Assembly: GCA_947504275.1 (NCBI GenBank)
Contig: CANNHA010000011.1
Span: 1-35,590 of the forward strand
Direction of reading: 5' to 3'
DNA from: Flavobacteriales bacterium
Lineage (GTDB): Bacteria; Bacteroidota; Bacteroidia; Flavobacteriales_D; Sanyastnellaceae
Length of the DNA stretch: 35,590 bases
Part shown: positions 16,418 through 28,355 of the stretch, in pieces
Layout: each line of letters begins with the position of its first letter
Numbering within the stretch: the stretch's first letter is position 1
Program-made: the position numbers and the translations under genes
Notes under the pieces: generated by a model
What the model was told of the DNA's origin: nothing
Database searches by the model: none
What the model saw: only the letters and a program-made list of their open reading frames with translations

Positions 16418-19400
16418 TTATCTTACCACCTGCAACCTAATCCTTTCGCCACCAAAATCAATCAAATAAAGCCCCGATTCCAAATCTCCAAAATTGATTT
16501 CTGCGACATTACCATTCAACACCACGTTGGTTTTAAACACAACCTTACCTGTGACATCTCTCATGACCAATTCCTGGACGGATTCATTTTCCGTTGCAGA
16601 TTCCAGGGCGAATATCAATTCGCCCCTACGATGACCGTTGTACTCTAAAACAAAACTACCTGTTGATGTAGGATTAGGATAAATTGAAATACTGGATACT
16701 CGTGACTCTGCACTCCAATTACTCCCGCTCTCATTCTCGCTCTGTAGAACCATTCCCGCCGTTCCCACTCTCAAACAATAAGCCGTACCCCACTGTCCCG
16801 CTGACCCGCTGCTGTGAACCGCACGGACCCTCACGCTGTAGGTTTTTCCGGTTGTGATGCTGGGTACATTGCTCAAGAAAAATACCGAGGCATTGGAGCC
16901 GCCTGGAATGATTTGAGTAGTTCCCTCTACTGGTAACACTTCCGTAAACTCCCACTCGTAGCGCACCGCTCCGCAAACGGTTCTATCCGGTGCAATGGTG
17001 GAGGTAAGAGATTTGATTTTTGGACAGCGGTCACTTAGCCTCAATGATATTGTATTTTCAGACAACAACGTTGCTGATCCTAAAACCGTTGGTTGAGCGA
17101 CAATCGTTTCCATGTTATTGGCAGCATCTGCAACCTGATAAATCACCGGGACTCGCATGCCATAAACAATTGAGGCACCCGATTGATTCACTGGAAGAAT
17201 ACTACCCAACCTACCCACTAAGGAACTTGCACCTGAAGTAGTGTAGCTCCAAGGCTCGATCAATAAAGCAACTCCATTTTGCTGAGCAGACAAAACTTCA
17301 AACTGATAATGAGATGCATTGGCCTTAAATGAGGCCTTAAAGCTGTTGCATACGTTGGTGTAAATTCCTGTGTTATTGCTGTAATAATGATCCACTGAGG
17401 ACCCTACAAAGTGATTAAAACAAATCTTGGCACTGGGATTCATAACTCCTGAAATGTTTTGAACCGCCACCCAATATTCAACACCAACTTGCAAGTCATC
17501 ACTCAACAATACTTGATTACCTGAAGTGTTCTCGTGTTCAATTAATTTCAATTCCATGCATTCTCCTTCCACTCTTTCAAACAACAACAAACGATTGTTT
17601 CCTGTTGCCGCTGACAAACCGACACGAATATTATTGTAATTGGAGACAAATGAAAACCAGATTGACCTTCCTTGAATTCCTTCCAAATTCACTATGGCAC
17701 CGGTATTCAAATTGGCGCTCTTAACTGCATTTCCTGTGCATGAAGGATACAGCGATGATGAAACCAAAACAGGATTAACTCCAGGAAAATAACTCCCTGC
17801 AATGGCAAAACCATCGCAATCCTCATCCCATTCATTGCCACAAATCTCAGACATAGATGGATTGATACTTGCCCACTCATCATCACAATCTGAATTGTCC
17901 AAAACAAACCCCTCTTGTATCAAACAAGAAACAAATCCTACACTATTGGTTCCATATCCATCACCGTCAAAGTCAGCATAGTAATAAAATTGGGCCAAAT
18001 TCTCATCCGTCACTCCATCACAGTTATCATCCAAATCATTACAAACTTCAGTAGCAGCTGGATTCACCAGAGGATTGTCATCATTGCAATCCACCAAATT
18101 GGTGTAACCATCATCATCCAAATCCACTTCACAACCCTCGTCAATAAAACCATTGCAATTGTCATCAATGCCATTTCCACATTGTTCATTTGCATTGGGA
18201 TTGACATTGGGATTGCTGTCCTGACAATCACCATGCTGTGCAACGTAACCAAATGGCAAAATACATTTGATCAACACCACTTCGGCATTACCTGCTCCAT
18301 CATTGTCCAAATCCTCGTAGTAAGTTTCAAACACCAATCCTTCATCAATCACTGCATTACAGTTGTCATCAAGATCATTGCAAATCTCCACAGCTGATGG
18401 ATTAATCATGAATACCCAATCATTACAATCACCTTCTTGGGGAACAAAACCAAAAGGTTGGTTGCACGCATTAATTGCATTCTCACTCTGTCCAAATCCA
18501 TCTTCATCGATATCTTGATAATACGATTCATAAATCAATCCATCATCGACTAAAGCATTACAATCATTATCAAGGCTATCGCAAAATTCAATGTTGTTGG
18601 GATGCACGACCGTATTGGCATCATCACAATCCTCTTCATTGTTGACATAACCCTCCAGGGCTTCACAGGCCATTTGAACCATCATCCCATTGCCATATCC
18701 GTCTTGATCTTGATCTTCAAATTGAGCATAAACAAGCCCTTCATCTACAAGCCCATTGTTGTTGTCATCCAAACCATTGCACACTTCGGTGCCTTGCACA
18801 TATTGGAAATGACAAAAACGGGTTTCACCAAAATTGACAAGCAATGACTCTGCTACCATTTCTTGACCTGACCCATCAAAGAAACGGACAGCATCTAACG
18901 TAGCCACATTATCAATAACCAAACTCAATGAAGAGGCTGCATTAAAACTCACCCATGTCACGTACAATGTATCATTTGAAGTCTCTGTCTCGATATGTGC
19001 GGCAATTCGCTCTCTCCAAAAGTCTCCAAAATCATCCAAGAACATGTATTTCAAATCATTACCAAGTCCATTGACATACTGCTGTTCAGCCAATAATTTG
19101 TAACCTCGATTGGGGTGTATCAATAAGACCGTTGGTGCATTATTGGCCAAGTTCTTTTGCGTAATATTCATCCAATTCTGCGCGTATGAACTATAGTTTT
19201 CCTGACTGAATGGAATGGATGCTGAGGCATCTGAAATGGTCATTGGGATTTCGAGAACATTGGTTTGCGTCCCGGAAAATTTCAGTTCGTCAATATCAAA
19301 AAACGGGAAATTGGTTAGGACATCGTTCGCAGAAAAAGTAGAATTATACAGATATCCCAAATCTTGCAAGGCTTTGGGCAGTCTAGGATTAAAAGCCAAG

Positions 19401-20602
19401 TGGCCAGCCCTAAAAGACTTCACCTGAACATTGTGGTTGGTTTCTAAAAGGTATTTAGACACCTCCACCTCTCCATAAACATTTCCACCTGTGGTAACCC
19501 CATTGTAGTACCTCGGTTGATAATCTAGTTGAGTGTTTCCAGGGGATGACAAGGGAAATGTAGTGGCGTTATAATAATCTGGGAAATGCCCAACCGAGTG
19601 TGAAGCAATTTTTTGTCCTTTGCTCTTAACATACTCTACTTTATCCAATGAAATGGGATAAAAAGCGGTCATCCAAGAATCAGCAAAATACCTTGTTGTA
19701 ACATTGTACGTACTGTTTATGCCATGCGTTTGCTCATAATCCGCAAAAATGGCCATGCTATCCATGGCAGTTCTGCTATCGATATCGTGCGTAACCATTA
19801 CTACACCCGATTCACAATCCGGACAAGTATGCACGCGCACCGCATGATCAGTATGCTCCCGTATAATGTTGGTGACAAAAAAAACAAAAGTGTCTGTGGT
19901 AGGTTCAAAACCATTAGAATAGGTTCTATGTGCATTCAAATCGCTATTGATTAAATTGCGCATGACAACATCACGCAAATCTATACCTATCAAAAATGCA
20001 TGGCCCTCTCCATACTCATGGTGTATCACCGCAGCCAAGTTGTTCTCGTAATGGGCAAGTGTTTCCGAATTTCCAGATGGAGTATAAGATCTAATATTGA
20101 AGGCTGACGAAAAGGTATCTGAACTATCTGCTAAAGAAATCATTTGCTCCATGGGGTCATCTATTCGGTCAAAATACCCAAGCTCCTGATCAGTATGCCA
20201 ATACATCCGTTTCAAATCAGTATGAGTAGTATAGCTCGACACCCCAAACAAAGCATATAAATCAGGATCGCGCATCGATGATGCAATGAGCACCCCGCCG
20301 CCATTGACATATTGTATCAATTGATTCTTCTCAGCCGATGTAAAAGTTCCTGGTATAATCACAGGAGACAATAAGACAATGGGATATTGCAAAACAGAAT
20401 CAAGGACATTGCTCTCACGATAAGAAACACCCCCAACCTGCAACAAATGCCTGCATGAGCGAATTCTCGAAAGATTGGTCTCACTGTTCTTTATGGTCAA
20501 ATCCAATAGTCCGACTTGAACCTGTTGACCGAGAAGGGATGAAACATTGGTTGCAAATAGCAAGACGAATAAGACCCAACTAAGCTTCATTTTTAACTTC
20601 AT
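16418..20602 (-). CDS. Secreted multidomain protein: N-terminal GATase1/ThuA-like region, CE4 (NodB-like) polysaccharide deacetylase, MopE-type metal-binding repeats, Fn3-like region, T9SS C-terminal sorting domain
   Basis: Signal peptide; VVMVTHDIDSR, SHSVGHF, RAGHLAFN and HPNRG (CE4-like motif order); repeated EVCNDLDDNCNxxxDEG...DxDxDGxG...DCDD units; tail SISIYPNPTSTGSFVLEY...LESGLYLIDFGGERIRLQVVR. Confidence 0.85.
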   Translation of the reverse strand: MKLKMKLSWVLFVLLFATNVSSLLGQQVQVGLLDLTIKNSETNLSRIRSCRHLLQVGGVSYRESNVLDSVLQYPIVLLSPVIIPGTFTSAEKNQLIQYVNGGGVLIASSMRDPDLYALFGVSSYTTHTDLKRMYWHTDQELGYFDRIDDPMEQMISLADSSDTFSSAFNIRSYTPSGNSETLAHYENNLAAVIHHEYGEGHAFLIGIDLRDVVMRNLINSDLNAHRTYSNGFEPTTDTFVFFVTNIIREHTDHAVRVHTCPDCESGVVMVTHDIDSRTAMDSMAIFADYEQTHGINSTYNVTTRYFADSWMTAFYPISLDKVEYVKSKGQKIASHSVGHFPDYYNATTFPLSSPGNTQLDYQPRYYNGVTTGGNVYGEVEVSKYLLETNHNVQVKSFRAGHLAFNPRLPKALQDLGYLYNSTFSANDVLTNFPFFDIDELKFSGTQTNVLEIPMTISDASASIPFSQENYSSYAQNWMNITQKNLANNAPTVLLIHPNRGYKLLAEQQYVNGLGNDLKYMFLDDFGDFWRERIAAHIETETSNDTLYVTWVSFNAASSLSLVIDNVATLDAVRFFDGSGQEMVAESLLVNFGETRFCHFQYVQGTEVCNGLDDNNNGLVDEGLVYAQFEDQDQDGYGNGMMVQMACEALEGYVNNEEDCDDANTVVHPNNIEFCDSLDNDCNALVDDGLIYESYYQDIDEDGFGQSENAINACNQPFGFVPQEGDCNDWVFMINPSAVEICNDLDDNCNAVIDEGLVFETYYEDLDNDGAGNAEVVLIKCILPFGYVAQHGDCQDSNPNVNPNANEQCGNGIDDNCNGFIDEGCEVDLDDDGYTNLVDCNDDNPLVNPAATEVCNDLDDNCDGVTDENLAQFYYYADFDGDGYGTNSVGFVSCLIQEGFVLDNSDCDDEWASINPSMSEICGNEWDEDCDGFAIAGSYFPGVNPVLVSSSLYPSCTGNAVKSANLNTGAIVNLEGIQGRSIWFSFVSNYNNIRVGLSAATGNNRLLLFERVEGECMELKLIEHENTSGNQVLLSDDLQVGVEYWVAVQNISGVMNPSAKICFNHFVGSSVDHYYSNNTGIYTNVCNSFKASFKANASHYQFEVLSAQQNGVALLIEPWSYTTSGASSLVGRLGSILPVNQSGASIVYGMRVPVIYQVADAANNMETIVAQPTVLGSATLLSENTISLRLSDRCPKIKSLTSTIAPDRTVCGAVRYEWEFTEVLPVEGTTQIIPGGSNASVFFLSNVPSITTGKTYSVRVRAVHSSGSAGQWGTAYCLRVGTAGMVLQSENESGSNWSAESRVSSISIYPNPTSTGSFVLEYNGHRRGELIFALESATENESVQELVMRDVTGKVVFKTNVVLNGNVAEINFGDLESGLYLIDFGGERIRLQVVR

Positions 20603-20653: not shown

Positions 20654-21961
20654 TTACAAATGCATTTTCTTTGCAAATGCCGATGATTTGGGAGGATTCC
20701 ATGGATCATTGTATGACTCTTTAAATATTAGTTCTTGTAGATAAGCCTTTGTTCTTACAAAACGAAGAAAGTAGCCAAAGTAAAGCACCATACCTGGCAA
20801 GTATGGCAAGAAATAGGCAATGGGTTCCTTTTGTGACAGGCGGAACGCAGAGAATATGATAAACTTCAAAAAATAATTAGCTGTGTAAAGCGCAAGGTTG
20901 GTCAGCAATATAAATGGCAATAAGGACGTGAAGTTTAATAAGATGTCAGCGATGTAGAAATACCATTTGAAGTTTAAAACCAAATTGTAAAAAATGTTCT
21001 CGATAAATGAAATAAAATTCAACCATGAAAAGTTTTTAGATGGCAAGAGAACATCAATGTGCTTGCGCAAGCGAAAGCGCACCAAACTCTTATCCCAACG
21101 CAGCCTTTGTTTGGCCAATTTGCGAAAAGTGTCGGGAGCTGATGTTTTACATACCGCTGTGGGTTCATATTTAACCTTGTAACCCATTTTCCTCAACTTT
21201 ACAGTAATATCACCATCCAATCCAGGCCCTACATCCCATCCACTTATTTTATCCAAGGCATCTCTTCTAAAAGCGCCAAAAGCACCGCTAATTACCCTGT
21301 AAATACCCAACTCACTGCTGGAAATACGACCTATGGAAATACTATCAAAATACTCGATGGCTTGAAAAGTAGCCACCAGTGAATCCTTGTAATTTCTTAC
21401 TTGAACATTTCCACCAACTCCACCTATCAAAGGATCCGTATAAAACAACTTAACAATGTTCTCCATCGCATCAGGACTATAAGAACAGTCCGCATCTAAA
21501 TGAACCACAAACTCACCCTTAGACAATCGCAAAGCTAAATTGGCAGCAGATGCCTTTCCTCCCCTCACTTCATTGCGCACAAACAGATCAATCATACCGT
21601 TCTTTTCCAAACTTCTGCAAATGCGCTCCGTATCGTCATCACTGCCATCATCAATAATGATCAATTCAAAGTTTTGATAGGTCTGCTGTTTCAGTGACTG
21701 AACCAATTTATAGATATGCTTGCCCTCATTTTTCCCGGGCACAATTATGGAAATCAATGGCATCCGTGTCCAAAACTCATAATGCGCTTTGGTAATCTTG
21801 TCCTTTCTAAATCTGTGCGTGAATCGCCACAATATGAGGACAAACAACTCGAATATGAAGAATCTTAAAAACTCAAATATTACAAAAAAATAGAAATAGC
21901 GAAAGAATTTACCTAAAGTGATAAACTGAACAAAATTGATAAAGTCATCAATGAAATTCAT
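20654..21961 (-). CDS. Processive-type family 2 glycosyltransferase (membrane polysaccharide synthase, HAS/NodC/PgaC-like)
   Basis: N-terminal TM, SIIVPGKNEGKHI, DDGSDDDT, HLDADCS (DxD), GLDGDIT, QRLRW (QxxRW), then several C-terminal TM segments. Confidence 0.9.
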   Translation of the reverse strand: MNFIDDFINFVQFITLGKFFRYFYFFVIFEFLRFFIFELFVLILWRFTHRFRKDKITKAHYEFWTRMPLISIIVPGKNEGKHIYKLVQSLKQQTYQNFELIIIDDGSDDDTERICRSLEKNGMIDLFVRNEVRGGKASAANLALRLSKGEFVVHLDADCSYSPDAMENIVKLFYTDPLIGGVGGNVQVRNYKDSLVATFQAIEYFDSISIGRISSSELGIYRVISGAFGAFRRDALDKISGWDVGPGLDGDITVKLRKMGYKVKYEPTAVCKTSAPDTFRKLAKQRLRWDKSLVRFRLRKHIDVLLPSKNFSWLNFISFIENIFYNLVLNFKWYFYIADILLNFTSLLPFILLTNLALYTANYFLKFIIFSAFRLSQKEPIAYFLPYLPGMVLYFGYFLRFVRTKAYLQELIFKESYNDPWNPPKSSAFAKKMHL

Positions 21962-23370: not shown

Positions 23371-24456
23371 TCAGTACTTGAATTTTTTGACCTGAACCCC
23401 CATCTTGTAAAAGTTCTTCCACTTAACGCCTTCAATTGAATCACTTGGGTAAATATCTCCCGCGACAGATCTGGTTGTTGGTTCAAATCGTTTCTGATAC
23501 TCCTCTGGCAATGGAATTGTCGAATAGTAAAAACGTTGCACGATGCCTTCCGATATCTCCCCATTTGGAAAAATCACTTCAAAGCGATCACCAACTTGAA
23601 AATGATCAATATCGGCCTGCTCAAAATATGCCCGCACAAACACAGGAGAGGTTCTGTGAATGGACATGGAAATTTCTGACTTCAAACAGGTCTCAAATGG
23701 ACGCGTATAGATCCTATTCACGCTTCCTTCAAATGGCGAAATATAAAATTTCAGTTTATTATCATCGCCACTACTGCGTCCTTCCGCTTCTGCAAGCATA
23801 GGTCGCTCCAAAGGAATGTCCACTCGCATGCTGTTCAACTTTGAAATGGTCAATTGATACTCCAAAATTTCACCTTCCAAGCGACTTTGCTCGGCGTCGA
23901 GTTTGGTAATATCGTTCAATTTATTTTGTAAATGTGATTGAGGAATTACCCCCAACTGAACTTGAGATTTGATGGTGGTTAGCTCACGCTGATAGGTCGT
24001 CATCAATTGCTGATTCTCAGCCACTTTCACCTTGTTCAAATTGATTTTTTGTTCCACCGAGATGAGCTCACGTTCAATCCAATCATTGTTGTTCTGCACT
24101 CTTCCTGTTGTGCTTACGCCCGACATACGCAGTTTCACATCACTATCACTTTCATCAGACGACTCAACATAACTGAACAAAGTATCTCCAATTTTTATAG
24201 TATCATCAACATTGACAAAATAATCAATGATTCGGCTGTCCTCTAATAAACGCACATTGACATTCTCGTAAAGAATGTGGCCATCTGCCTTAACATAAAA
24301 CAATCTGGAAAAGATGAAATATGCGATACTTCCCAATAGAATAAAAAACACAATGAAATAAATCATTCTATCCCATTGTCGTTTATTCTTAACCAATGTT
24401 TTCTCATTGATCACTCGAATATCAGAGCCTTGTCGTTTAAAATTTACACTTTTCAA
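23371..24456 (-). CDS. HlyD-family periplasmic adaptor / membrane fusion protein
   Basis: One N-terminal TM, ADGHILYENVNVRLLEDSRIIDYFVNVDDTIKIGDTLFSY (lipoyl half), central coiled coil, VFVRAYFEQADIDHFQVGDRFEVIFPNGE. Confidence 0.85.
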   Translation of the reverse strand: MKSVNFKRQGSDIRVINEKTLVKNKRQWDRMIYFIVFFILLGSIAYFIFSRLFYVKADGHILYENVNVRLLEDSRIIDYFVNVDDTIKIGDTLFSYVESSDESDSDVKLRMSGVSTTGRVQNNNDWIERELISVEQKINLNKVKVAENQQLMTTYQRELTTIKSQVQLGVIPQSHLQNKLNDITKLDAEQSRLEGEILEYQLTISKLNSMRVDIPLERPMLAEAEGRSSGDDNKLKFYISPFEGSVNRIYTRPFETCLKSEISMSIHRTSPVFVRAYFEQADIDHFQVGDRFEVIFPNGEISEGIVQRFYYSTIPLPEEYQKRFEPTTRSVAGDIYPSDSIEGVKWKNFYKMGVQVKKFKY

Positions 24457-24459
24457 AGC

Positions 24460-26538
24460 TTATGGATTTATTTGTAAATAGGATTCAAAATCATGGATTG
24501 CAAATCGTTTGCTCTTCAGCCAAGGAGCCATTGCTTGCATATCCTTTTCCATGTCCTGACGCAATTTGTAATCTTTGGCGCTTAAAGCTATCGTGGCTTT
24601 ATCTCCAAAAACATTGAGTTCCTCTTCAGACCTTCTTTGTATGGCTTCCACCCCTGTTGTCTCGTAAGCCATCACCACAATTTCATCACTATTGTCTTTT
24701 AACACATTTAACACCTTTGTATCATAATACAACGGGATCGCAAAGCCCAATGAAACAGCTTTGGAATCTGCCCAATTGTGCAATTGAACAACCATCTGGG
24801 AATACCGTGACATCAAACTGTCTTTGTCCAGCTTGTAGGCTTCCATTGTATGCGGTTCGATGTCAATATGCACACCTGCCAACAATACTCCATTCAACTT
24901 TTTCCATACACTGTCCATTTTGGCTACAGCATCACCTTCCAACCATTGATTATGACCTATCAAGAGATGAACGGAGATATCCTTCTTTTGCAATTCATTG
25001 CACAGGGTTTTAAACCGTTGTACCTGCTCTGCTCCATTTCCTGCAGAAAGATATACCTCTTGTATACCCCACTGCAACAATTTTTCAGTAATGAACTCTG
25101 GCTCACGCTGAGCGATGGACTTGGACCACATGTACATATTCCGACTTCCTGTCAGCACCTTTTCCTCTGATTGAAATGAAATGGGTTCCTCATAAGGAGA
25201 CCATGATCGGATGTATTGCAGGACATTCTCCTCTGGCAACAGCCCATGAATATCACCCAACTTCAAATACAATTGCTGCTGAGCATCTAACTTTTCAATC
25301 TCTAAATTCCAAAGGTTTAACAGTACATTCAAAGCTTCCAGGGGCTGGAAATATTCAGTATTCACTTTGGCCTGCTCGCCAAAAGTCTCCAATTGTTGAC
25401 GCAATAAATCCTGCCTTCCCACAGCCACCGCATACTGCTTCAACTTGTATCTGTACTCATAAACAAGAGCAGAAACCTGTGTCCATTTCAACTCGGTTTG
25501 AACCTGCAATTGAGACTTGGCCTTCTGAAGTTTCAAAGAACTCAATGATTGATAATCCTTATTGAAAATCCTCAAAGGCACATTGGCGTTGAGTCCCATT
25601 GAAATGAATGCCCTATCCCTCATATTGTCTTGTAAGTCAAAATAGTTGTACTTAAAGCTGTAAGATAGCCCTACCTCATTGATCCAATGTTTTCGCCAAG
25701 CATCATTCTCCTCTTGCAGCATCAATTGGCGATCTTGCACCGGATGATTGTTGCAAAGCATTCTAAGGGCCTTGACATTGATATCAAACAAGGGCCAAGA
25801 ATTAGAAATATTTACAGAAGACGACTGTACCAATCCTTCCATGCCATCATTAAATCCGCGGTAGGTCTGAATTTGTCCATTGGTCTCCATCAATTGCTCG
25901 TAGACTTTATAGAGTTCATCATTCAATGCAGGATAAAGGGAAACAGCTTGCTTCAGTATGACAATCTCATCTTGTAAGACTTTCTTTTTCTTCTCCAAAA
26001 CCTGCACTTTTTGGGCATTGAACAAAAAGAGTACATTGTTTTTGCTCCAATAAGAAATACTCTGGTTGCGATTCTCCGTAGCAGTGAGCAATTCAATGTT
26101 CTTCTCATTAACCAGCGCCTTGGATTCAAAGCCATTGGCAACAAGCCCTCCAGCTAAGATGTCCCAATTGAAACCTGTAGTGGTCTTGGCCTTGTAAAAA
26201 AGATTTTCTTCTGATGGTTGTGGATCAAAGTTCTGTATAATATTTGTATTCCACGATAAACCATAATCAGCCCTAACAGCTTTGGATTTCTGGTTGTAAT
26301 ACTGTTCTATTTGCTGCAATATTTCAGGAGACTTGGCTGAATTCACGTCCGGCCACAGGGATGGAACAACTTCTAAATTCAAGACACTTAATTTAGGAAA
26401 TGGATTTGACGCATGTTGCAACCAAAGATTGCTCAATTGGTCAACGGCTGAGTTGGATGACCCAGGTTGCGCCAATGCAAAAAGAACTGACAAACAAGCC
26501 ATAAGACCCATTAAAACACTTTTCAAATTCCTTTTCAT
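24460..26538 (-). CDS. TolC-like outer-membrane protein with C-terminal GH18-like TIM-barrel domain
   Basis: Signal peptide MKRNLKSVLMGLMACLSVLFALAQ (ATG at 26538; listed ORF starts at 26646). TolC-type coiled-coil/barrel repeats to about aa 460 of the mature protein; C-terminal part has GVHIDIEPHT and EIVVMAYETTG, resembling GH18 DxxDxDxE and MxYD motifs. Confidence 0.72.
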   Translation of the reverse strand: MKRNLKSVLMGLMACLSVLFALAQPGSSNSAVDQLSNLWLQHASNPFPKLSVLNLEVVPSLWPDVNSAKSPEILQQIEQYYNQKSKAVRADYGLSWNTNIIQNFDPQPSEENLFYKAKTTTGFNWDILAGGLVANGFESKALVNEKNIELLTATENRNQSISYWSKNNVLFLFNAQKVQVLEKKKKVLQDEIVILKQAVSLYPALNDELYKVYEQLMETNGQIQTYRGFNDGMEGLVQSSSVNISNSWPLFDINVKALRMLCNNHPVQDRQLMLQEENDAWRKHWINEVGLSYSFKYNYFDLQDNMRDRAFISMGLNANVPLRIFNKDYQSLSSLKLQKAKSQLQVQTELKWTQVSALVYEYRYKLKQYAVAVGRQDLLRQQLETFGEQAKVNTEYFQPLEALNVLLNLWNLEIEKLDAQQQLYLKLGDIHGLLPEENVLQYIRSWSPYEEPISFQSEEKVLTGSRNMYMWSKSIAQREPEFITEKLLQWGIQEVYLSAGNGAEQVQRFKTLCNELQKKDISVHLLIGHNQWLEGDAVAKMDSVWKKLNGVLLAGVHIDIEPHTMEAYKLDKDSLMSRYSQMVVQLHNWADSKAVSLGFAIPLYYDTKVLNVLKDNSDEIVVMAYETTGVEAIQRRSEEELNVFGDKATIALSAKDYKLRQDMEKDMQAMAPWLKSKRFAIHDFESYLQINP

Positions 26539-26947
26539 TCCATGTTTACCAAAAGGTTTGCAAATAAAGGTGACAATTCTCATTTTTATGTCATCAAAAC
26601 GTACATTTCTTCTTAATTTTTCGTTAATAATAATATTGTCTAACATAATCGTGTTCTCAACCTAGGGAAAGGTGATGGAGAAAGCGGAAAAGAGAAGAGT
26701 TGGTTTTCGCTTTGCGCACTGATCGGATTGTTGAAGAGCTTTGCATTTTTGTTGTATAAAGCAAAGCGCGGAAAGGTTTCCCACCAATCTGCCTTCCACC
26801 ACAGCACGGTCATTAACAAGCAAAACCTTTTTGAGCCGAAAACTGAAAACGAAATTGAACATGTCAATGAGCCGATCTACTGCGGTGTCTTGGAAGATGG
26901 TCAATGATACCCCTCACCTGTGTAAGAATTACACATTTTAGCAAGAA

Positions 26948-28303
26948 TCAGAGAGAAATTCCCTTATTTTCCCGCTTTATCTCTGAATTTAAATACAGTT
27001 TCTTGACCCTTCGATCAGATTCCAACCTTTTTTCCAGAAAAACCTCCTCAACAGATATCCCAGTAATCAAAGATAATTTCTTCTTCAAGTCTCGCATCTT
27101 GATGTCCTTCCTCTTCTTCAATGTGTCAAAATTGGGATCACCGTGATCAAAGAACCGATTCAAGTCAGACGACTCAAATCCCGCTTCTCCGACTTCAAAA
27201 AAGAATAACACCATTTGCCTCTCGATTTCTGTCAGAGGTTCTAGCACTTTAACTTCTACCTTTTCCGGTATCTCAAACTTCTTACCCCAACCATTAAACT
27301 TCCAACTATACCAACCAATCAAAACAATGACCATCAATATCAACAAAACTGAAATCACAATCCAATTGGGTGATACTCTATAAACAAAAATCTCTTGCGC
27401 CAAAGGGGCTCCTAAGTAATCTTTCCGCTTCACCAACTCCACAAGAAAACTGCCTTGGTCATGATTAATTCGGGACAAAAGCAAATGCTCTCCTTGTTCT
27501 ATCAACTCATATAAACTTGTAAACTTGTCTGAAGAATAAATGGTGATCTGATTCAAATCCACATCCACTTCCAACAATCTATTTCCCAATCGTGCCAAAC
27601 TTCCTTCATTCTTCCAAAACTTCAATAAGTACTCATTTTCCGGATTCCAAGTCACTTCTATTGGTCCAAGATTACGCCATTCCCAAGTTCTGGTATTTAA
27701 AACACGCACTTCATCCAAATCTTGACTGCCATTAATACCCTCCGATTTACCCTTGAAAAAATATTTTTCCTCTTTGCCTCTAAAAGAAAAACCTCCTGAA
27801 AAATCGGGAGGTTCCACCCCTCGACAACTGCGATGGTACCATCCATGCGTATCCCAATCAAAATAGGTGGTGATATTGGTGGATTCAAAGAAACCATAAC
27901 CTCCCGTCATAAAAATGGTATCGTTCTGGGTCCATATTACACAAGAATGTTGATTCTTATGCCGAAAAGAATGATCAATTCGGAAAATAGAATCCCCTTT
28001 CAACTGGTAAACCAATCCACAACCTGAAACCACAAAAAAATCTCCTCTTGAATTGGAAATGGGAATAAAATCTGAACGCAATGTATTGTAATCAATCCCC
28101 TCTTGGTAGTGAATCATATCTATTCTCCAGGGATGACCCCATCCATCAGAACTGAATAAGGTATCATTGCTGATGACATGGAATTTATTTGTCGAATTAC
28201 TAAAAAACACTACCGGTGTTCTTTTAAATACCAAGGTCTGCGCCTCACCGGTAAGGGTAATAACAAATAATATCAAAAAAGTAAAGACACTTAAACTGCG
28301 CAT
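26948..28303 (-). CDS. Putative membrane-spanning one-component regulator: extracytoplasmic Kelch-like region, single TM, cytosolic winged-HTH-like tail
   Basis: ATG at 28303 gives signal peptide MRSLSVFTFLILFVITLTGEAQ (listed ORF begins with TTG). TM is WIVISVLLILMVIVLIGWYSW. Tail LTEIERQMVLFFFEVGEAGFESSDLNRFFDHGDPNFDTLKKRKDIKMRDLKKKLSLITG resembles Bacteroidota wHTH tails. Confidence 0.6.
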   Translation of the reverse strand: MRSLSVFTFLILFVITLTGEAQTLVFKRTPVVFFSNSTNKFHVISNDTLFSSDGWGHPWRIDMIHYQEGIDYNTLRSDFIPISNSRGDFFVVSGCGLVYQLKGDSIFRIDHSFRHKNQHSCVIWTQNDTIFMTGGYGFFESTNITTYFDWDTHGWYHRSCRGVEPPDFSGGFSFRGKEEKYFFKGKSEGINGSQDLDEVRVLNTRTWEWRNLGPIEVTWNPENEYLLKFWKNEGSLARLGNRLLEVDVDLNQITIYSSDKFTSLYELIEQGEHLLLSRINHDQGSFLVELVKRKDYLGAPLAQEIFVYRVSPNWIVISVLLILMVIVLIGWYSWKFNGWGKKFEIPEKVEVKVLEPLTEIERQMVLFFFEVGEAGFESSDLNRFFDHGDPNFDTLKKRKDIKMRDLKKKLSLITGISVEEVFLEKRLESDRRVKKLYLNSEIKRENKGISL

Positions 28304-28321
28304 CCACCAATTCTTTGGTGG

Positions 28322-28355
28322 CAAAAGTACAGCTTTACAACTATTTTATGACAAA
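28322..28355 (-). promoter_or_regulatory. Putative promoter TTTG-N22-TACTTTTG for the Kelch/wHTH gene
   Basis: Minus-strand TTTG (28352-28355) and TACTTTTG (28322-28329), 18 nt before ATG 28303. The upstream element lies inside the 3' end of the M36 gene. Confidence 0.5.

Follow-up and report, generated by a model that had tools for sequence, protein, structure and literature searches.

The DNA analyzed here, referred to as the window, is a stretch of 35,590 nucleotides from a member of the Flavobacteriales. On its minus strand, four compactly arranged genes follow one another in the order OEP-TIM fusion, HlyD-like adaptor, TackOD1 protein and GT2. The adaptor gene starts 3 bp after the stop of the fusion gene, the TackOD1 gene follows after another 3 bp, and the GT2 gene overlaps the TackOD1 gene by 4 bp. 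The features of this locus are listed below.

24460..26538, minus strand: OEP (TolC-like)-TIM fusion gene, 692 aa, an intact ORF with full-length homologues
26467..26538, minus strand: signal peptide, residues 1-24 (MKRNLKSVLMGLMACLSVLFALAQ), read from the sequence and its hydrophobic segment
25141..26466, minus strand: OEP/TolC-like part, residues 25-466, assigned from PF02321 in three homologues and from alignment
24463..25140, minus strand: (beta/alpha)8 TIM-barrel domain, residues 467-692, GH18-related according to AF2, Foldseek and hhalign with controls
24847..24876, minus strand: beta-4 motif GVHIDIEPHT, residues 555-564, aligned with DGIDIDxE
24661..24672, minus strand: beta-6 motif MAYE, residues 623-626, aligned with MxYD
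23371..24456, minus strand: HlyD/EmrA-like periplasmic adaptor with one N-terminal TM helix
21958..23367, minus strand: TackOD1 (PF18551) protein with a C-terminal degenerate GGDEF-like domain, a probable regulator, from Pfam and a structure match
20654..21961, minus strand: processive membrane GT2, PgaC/IcaA-like, with DAD, DGD and QRLRW motifs
16418..20602, minus strand: type-IX-secreted accessory protein, 1394 aa, 51 bp after the GT2 gene

The minus-strand open frame that holds the fusion gene spans 24460-26646 and opens at 26646. The credible start, MKRNLKSV, lies at 26538 with 36 aa of open frame upstream of it, and the protein read from there begins with the signal peptide given above. 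An earlier note on this DNA had placed the gene at 24460-26538, with an N-terminal signal peptide and a junction between its two parts near 25150. All of this was confirmed: the coordinates are those of the minus-strand ORF with its start at 26538, the signal peptide is evident from the sequence, and the duct passes into the TIM domain at about residue 466/467 (nt 25140).

The same note had considered that a frameshift or an assembly error might have joined two separate genes. A chimera at the junction was ruled out by a close relative (G002), which carries the same fusion with about 80% identity along its whole length, and by 43 full-length fusion ORFs that were aligned. Thus, gene 24460-26538 is a single unbroken fusion of an outer-membrane-factor protein and a GH18-related barrel. 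Counting a few split or partial cases, we found the family in 29 of 295 genomes of the order and in 22 of 389 genomes of the class. Outside the class, the domain occurs in seven genomes of one family, six of which have fusion-length open frames. The earlier note's question of whether the same fusion occurs elsewhere is therefore answered: more than 40 genomes, some of them outside the class, carry full-length copies. When the TIM domain alone was used for a class-wide search, it was fused in 20 of 20 carriers, with two short frames that run into contig ends. No relatives of the fusion were found on viral contigs. In one locus (L097), the duct and TIM halves lie in adjacent frames, possibly as the result of a frameshift.

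The window protein matches no named family in Pfam or NCBIfam, OEP included. Low-scoring matches to tRNA-synt_1, OxoTetrIsom, ACD11 and a staphylococcal complement inhibitor were judged spurious. PF02321 (OEP), with a Pfam gathering score of 22 bits, is reached in three full-length relatives (L062, 28.1 bits; L043, 26.0 bits; L082, 22.0 bits) and nearly reached in several others. A 24-member alignment spans the duct part end to end, and the window copy aligns over its full length with the PF02321-matching relatives. Because these relatives reach the cut-off, we assign the first two thirds of the protein to the outer-membrane-factor (TolC-type) proteins, in agreement with the TolC-like reading proposed earlier. 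As to the trimeric 12-strand beta-barrel with alpha-tunnel that characterizes TolC, a sequence-based comparison of the OEP profile with the PDB gave no TolC match, and an AF2 model of the full-length fusion, built from the single sequence only, had a pLDDT of 35. In some fusions of about 885-900 aa, the duct is preceded by roughly 200 additional residues at the N-terminus; those of L092 (7080-9737) gave a Pfam match to a YCF48/BNR beta-propeller.

The C-terminal barrel and its relation to GH18

Residues 467-692 were modeled by AF2 from the single sequence as eight alternating beta/alpha units (pLDDT 76, pTM 0.75), which corresponds to the complete (beta/alpha)8 barrel that the earlier note had expected for the C-terminal part. 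A Foldseek search of the PDB with this model returned TIM barrels. Endo-beta-N-acetylglucosaminidase F3 (GH18; TM 0.63) is among them, as are class V chitinases, GH84 O-GlcNAcases and a GH18-like protein from Bacteroides, interspersed with tryptophan synthase alpha and designed barrels.

We then compared profiles using hhalign. A profile of 26 domain copies matched one of 21 Bacteroidota GH18 sequences with a score of 61.6 (probability 95, E 4e-8). The alignment covers beta-3 to beta-6 and pairs GxHLDxE with the GH18 DGIDIDxE and MxYE with MxYD, so that both motifs named in the earlier note are aligned. Single GH18 sequences scored near background against the TIM profile. Because only the GH18 profile, and no single sequence, matched clearly, control profiles were run. 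These scored 14.6 for the TrpA TIM barrel, 11.8 for the reversed GH18 profile, at most 17 for the three cassette partners and at most 17.6 for 100 column shuffles. PF00704 (GH18) gave no match in the window protein and was weakly matched by two of 20 relatives (best 2.5e-5). A Spherulin4 search gave no match to the domain and none in the controls either. On the strength of the profile comparison, the C-terminal domain is remotely but clearly related to GH18.

Ten residues are invariant in all 47 aligned copies (W471, G528, N530, H557, D559, E561, P602, M623, Y625 and D683), and most of them lie at predicted strand ends. Position 653 is Arg in 44 of the 47 copies and Ser in the window copy. D559, E561 and Y625 correspond to the Asp, Glu and Tyr with which GH18 enzymes carry out substrate-assisted catalysis. 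The proposal that EIVVMAYETTG corresponds to the beta-6 MxYD motif is upheld by the alignment and by the invariance of M623 and Y625. At beta-4, the proposed resemblance to DxxDxDxE holds in part: the segment aligns with DGIDIDxE, but two of the three signature Asp are missing. All 47 copies have GxHxDxE, which retains just the third Asp and the Glu of DxxDxDxE. Since it lacks the other two Asp of the signature, we refer to the domain as GH18-related rather than GH18; the GH18-like barrel of the earlier note thus stands in its fold and remote relationship, but not as a member of the family.

In three genomes of the phylum (L083, L084 and L085), distant relatives of the TIM domain with an HLDxEP motif stand alone, without the cassette, and one of them has a Por secretion tail. 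They indicate a wider, uncharacterized glycosidase-like family, to which the structure of a C. fimi protein (10yv, labelled GH97) is a further weak match.

The four-gene cassette and its neighbors

The order and orientation of the four genes are identical in 23 of 23 single-contig loci examined, three of which come from another class, and the genes flanking the cassette vary on both sides. The fusion is therefore no isolated case but one of the constant members of a four-gene cassette that is distributed across the phylum. In L090, the duct is kept and the TIM domain is reduced to its last ~45 residues, with the other three genes intact; as most of the domain is lost there, it is dispensable at least in this locus. 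The conserved cassette of the 23 loci contains no ABC, MFS or RND transporter.

Compared with solved adaptors, the profile of the second protein matched HlyD-type adaptors (2e-10), EmrA (8e-9) and also MacA. In the third protein, PF18551 was found with 164.6 bits (2.4e-48; cut-off 32) and conserved Cys pairs, and the region behind it matches diguanylate-cyclase (GGDEF) structures (1.1e-6). Despite this fold match, the GGDEF motif of an active diguanylate cyclase is absent in all TackOD1-cassette proteins checked. An RxxD at the I-site position is present in some lineages but absent in the window, so that we consider c-di-GMP binding no more than a possibility. Outside the class, the third protein has a receiver-TackOD1-GGDEF-like architecture, which supports a signaling role. 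TackOD1 has been described as a metal-binding domain of obscure function, an archaeal output domain that was also noted in some bacteria (PMC5847659). Its fixed partnership here with a putative exopolysaccharide synthase is a possible lead to its function. For the GT2, the best NCBIfam model is PgaC_IcaA, with 174 bits against an equivalog cut-off of 422. As this is far under the cut-off, the sugar of the polymer can be named only putatively.

The product of 16418-20602 combines a NodB-like polysaccharide deacetylase region, six MopE metal-binding repeats and a Por sorting tail. Such a type-IX-secreted deacetylase adjoins the cassette in the window and in G002, L092 and L093 (three lineages), which suggests an N-acetylated polymer. 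L011 and L013 likewise have MopE-repeat proteins close to the cassette, and a type-IX-secreted CotH-kinase protein lies directly downstream of it in L015, L089, L096 and L097 (several families). Both kinds of neighbor, deacetylase and CotH kinase, would suit a surface polymer that is modified or anchored. In the window, the gene at 26948-28324, immediately upstream of the cassette, encodes a Kelch-like protein that has a single C-terminal TM helix plus a cytoplasmic tail and is a possible sensor-regulator; among the compared loci, this gene recurs only in G002.

Proposed export machine and rival explanations

We favor, with moderate confidence, the interpretation that the cassette is a dedicated synthase-dependent exopolysaccharide machine of Bacteroidota whose duct has its own periplasmic GH18-related hydrolase. 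In favor of it are the constant gene order, the invariable fusion of the TIM domain in the class-wide search, the barrel fold with its GH18 profile match and invariant triad, the PgaC/IcaA-like GT2, the HlyD/EmrA match and the neighboring deacetylases; against it count the remoteness of the GH18 relationship with its two missing Asp, the loss in L090, the low PgaC score of the GT2 and the Ser at position 653 of the window copy. The proposal of an undescribed Bacteroidota-wide secretion machine that joins a duct-borne hydrolase to a PgaC-like synthase via HlyD under TackOD1/degenerate-GGDEF control has in our estimate a slightly better than even chance of being correct. In the order of events that we infer, the GT2 would polymerize a beta-linked amino-sugar polymer and extrude it through the inner membrane, and the HlyD-like adaptor would connect the GT2 with a trimeric duct of the TolC type for its export. 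Regulation of the synthase, from the cytoplasmic side, would fall to the TackOD1/degenerate-GGDEF protein. The GH18-related barrel, placed at the C-terminus of each duct protomer in the periplasmic equatorial belt, would hydrolyze the polymer; given its GH18-like Asp-Glu-Tyr triad, it would probably act on N-acetylated sugars, and it might either remove chains that stray into the periplasm or set chain length and release.

The C-termini of outer membrane factors and their C-terminal elongations are part of the periplasmic equatorial domain (PMC8277102), and three TIM barrels would accordingly be predicted to ring the duct waist on its outer face. From this position, polymer that has escaped into the periplasm would be within reach of the barrels, and so would the space between synthase and duct, whereas the lumen would not. 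An equatorial position outside the lumen argues against trimming inside the duct, and because the barrels would be unable to reach the lumen, we prefer clean-up or length control to trimming at the exit. An extracellular exit position of the glycosidase is likewise unlikely from the topology of OEP proteins. The earlier note had suggested that the hydrolase trims or releases nascent polymer like that of PgaB. The context supports such a role (PgaC/IcaA-like GT2, HlyD adaptor and often a deacetylase), but by OEP topology the domain would lie in the periplasm at the equator of the duct rather than at its exit. In our analysis, clean-up, length control or the opening of peptidoglycan would each be as plausible as trimming of the outgoing polymer.

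The opening of peptidoglycan is the main rival explanation. Here the TIM barrel would act as a glycosidase on peptidoglycan and locally open the murein mesh for passage of the duct; we consider this unlikely. The barrel would sit in the periplasm at about the level of the murein, and GH18-type folds are known to act on N-acetylglucosamine backbones. In addition, a congener (G006), whose duct and TIM halves are located on two contigs (L012 1-2840 and L013 11535-12992), has an apparent insert of more than 700 residues, long and of low complexity, that ends in a SPOR match below threshold (19.7 bits, cut-off 21). However, the join in G006 spans the contig break, other TolC-type ducts do not need a comparable domain, and the neighboring deacetylase and synthase indicate an exported polymer instead.

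Quite unlikely, in our view, is a catalytically inactive barrel that serves as a glycan-binding guide or as a docking ring for the HlyD adaptor. The loss of two of the three GH18 signature Asp would agree with it, as would the contacts of OEP equatorial domains and C-terminal tails with the adaptor (PMC8277102), but the active-site-like set of D559, E561, Y625, D683, W471 and H557 at the strand ends, invariant in 47 of 47 copies, speaks for catalysis, and the intact partner genes of L090 speak against a structural role. Although efflux and type I secretion are the usual tasks of HlyD and TolC, export of a protein or small molecule, with the GT2 glycosylating the cargo or a lipid, is very unlikely, since the conserved cassette lacks ABC, MFS and RND transporters and the GT2 has processive QxxRW and PgaC-like features.

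Comparison with known systems

With GH18 enzymes such as endo F3 and the class V chitinases, the barrel shares the TIM fold, the DxE at beta-4 and the Tyr at beta-6. It differs from them in having (A/G)xHxDxE in place of DxxDxDxE, in its shorter length (~226 aa) and in an identity of 11-16%.

The Pga/Ica system for PNAG (PgaA-D) resembles the cassette in its PgaC/IcaA-like GT2 and, likely, in N-acetyl-sugar chemistry. PgaB consists of a deacetylase and a TIM hydrolase (GHL13) and likewise places a TIM-type hydrolase domain in the periplasm near the outer membrane. In contrast, the hydrolase described here is GH18-related and fused to a TolC-type duct, and the cassette has an HlyD adaptor and is without the PgaA porin, PgaB and PgaD. 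A Pga PNAG operon was therefore rejected as the identity of the locus: the likeness lies only in the PgaC-like GT2 (174 bits), pgaA and pgaD do not belong to the cassette, and GHL13 is absent from the genome of the window.

In the open-access literature, which was the scope of our search (subscription papers lay outside it), we found no description of an OEP-TIM/HlyD/TackOD1/GT2 cassette. All parts of a tripartite system and a duct-bound hydrolase are present here in one compact operon that is conserved across the phylum, and its carriers probably include cultivable Flavobacteriaceae. This makes the tripartite export model, the role of a hydrolase in secretion and the function of TackOD1 directly testable.

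The same tripartite logic of polysaccharide export has been proposed for cyanobacterial cellulose in the XcsAB-TolC model (Maeda 2018), in which a GT2, an HlyD-like adaptor and a TolC-like duct cooperate; a 2025 review describes this model as unvalidated and the xcs genes as not co-located (PMC12430437). While the Xcs genes are not in one operon and their synthase carries PilZ, the complex proposed here would be encoded by co-conserved genes of one operon, and the cassette adds a TackOD1/GGDEF-like regulator as well as a hydrolase that is part of the duct protein itself.

The idea of fusing a hydrolase to a pore is itself already known, with other folds and from one genus. In bacterial cellulose export, BcsZ is the cellulase, and BcsC is the porin, with TPR and 16 strands. 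A BcsZ-BcsC fusion was reported from Zymomonas cellulose operons in a survey of exopolysaccharide operons (PMC7112194), and it shares with the fusion described here the principle of a periplasmic hydrolase attached to the outer-membrane pore of an exopolysaccharide operon. Whereas that fusion is found in a single genus and uses different folds, the present one joins an OEP/TolC duct to a GH18-like barrel and is conserved across a phylum.
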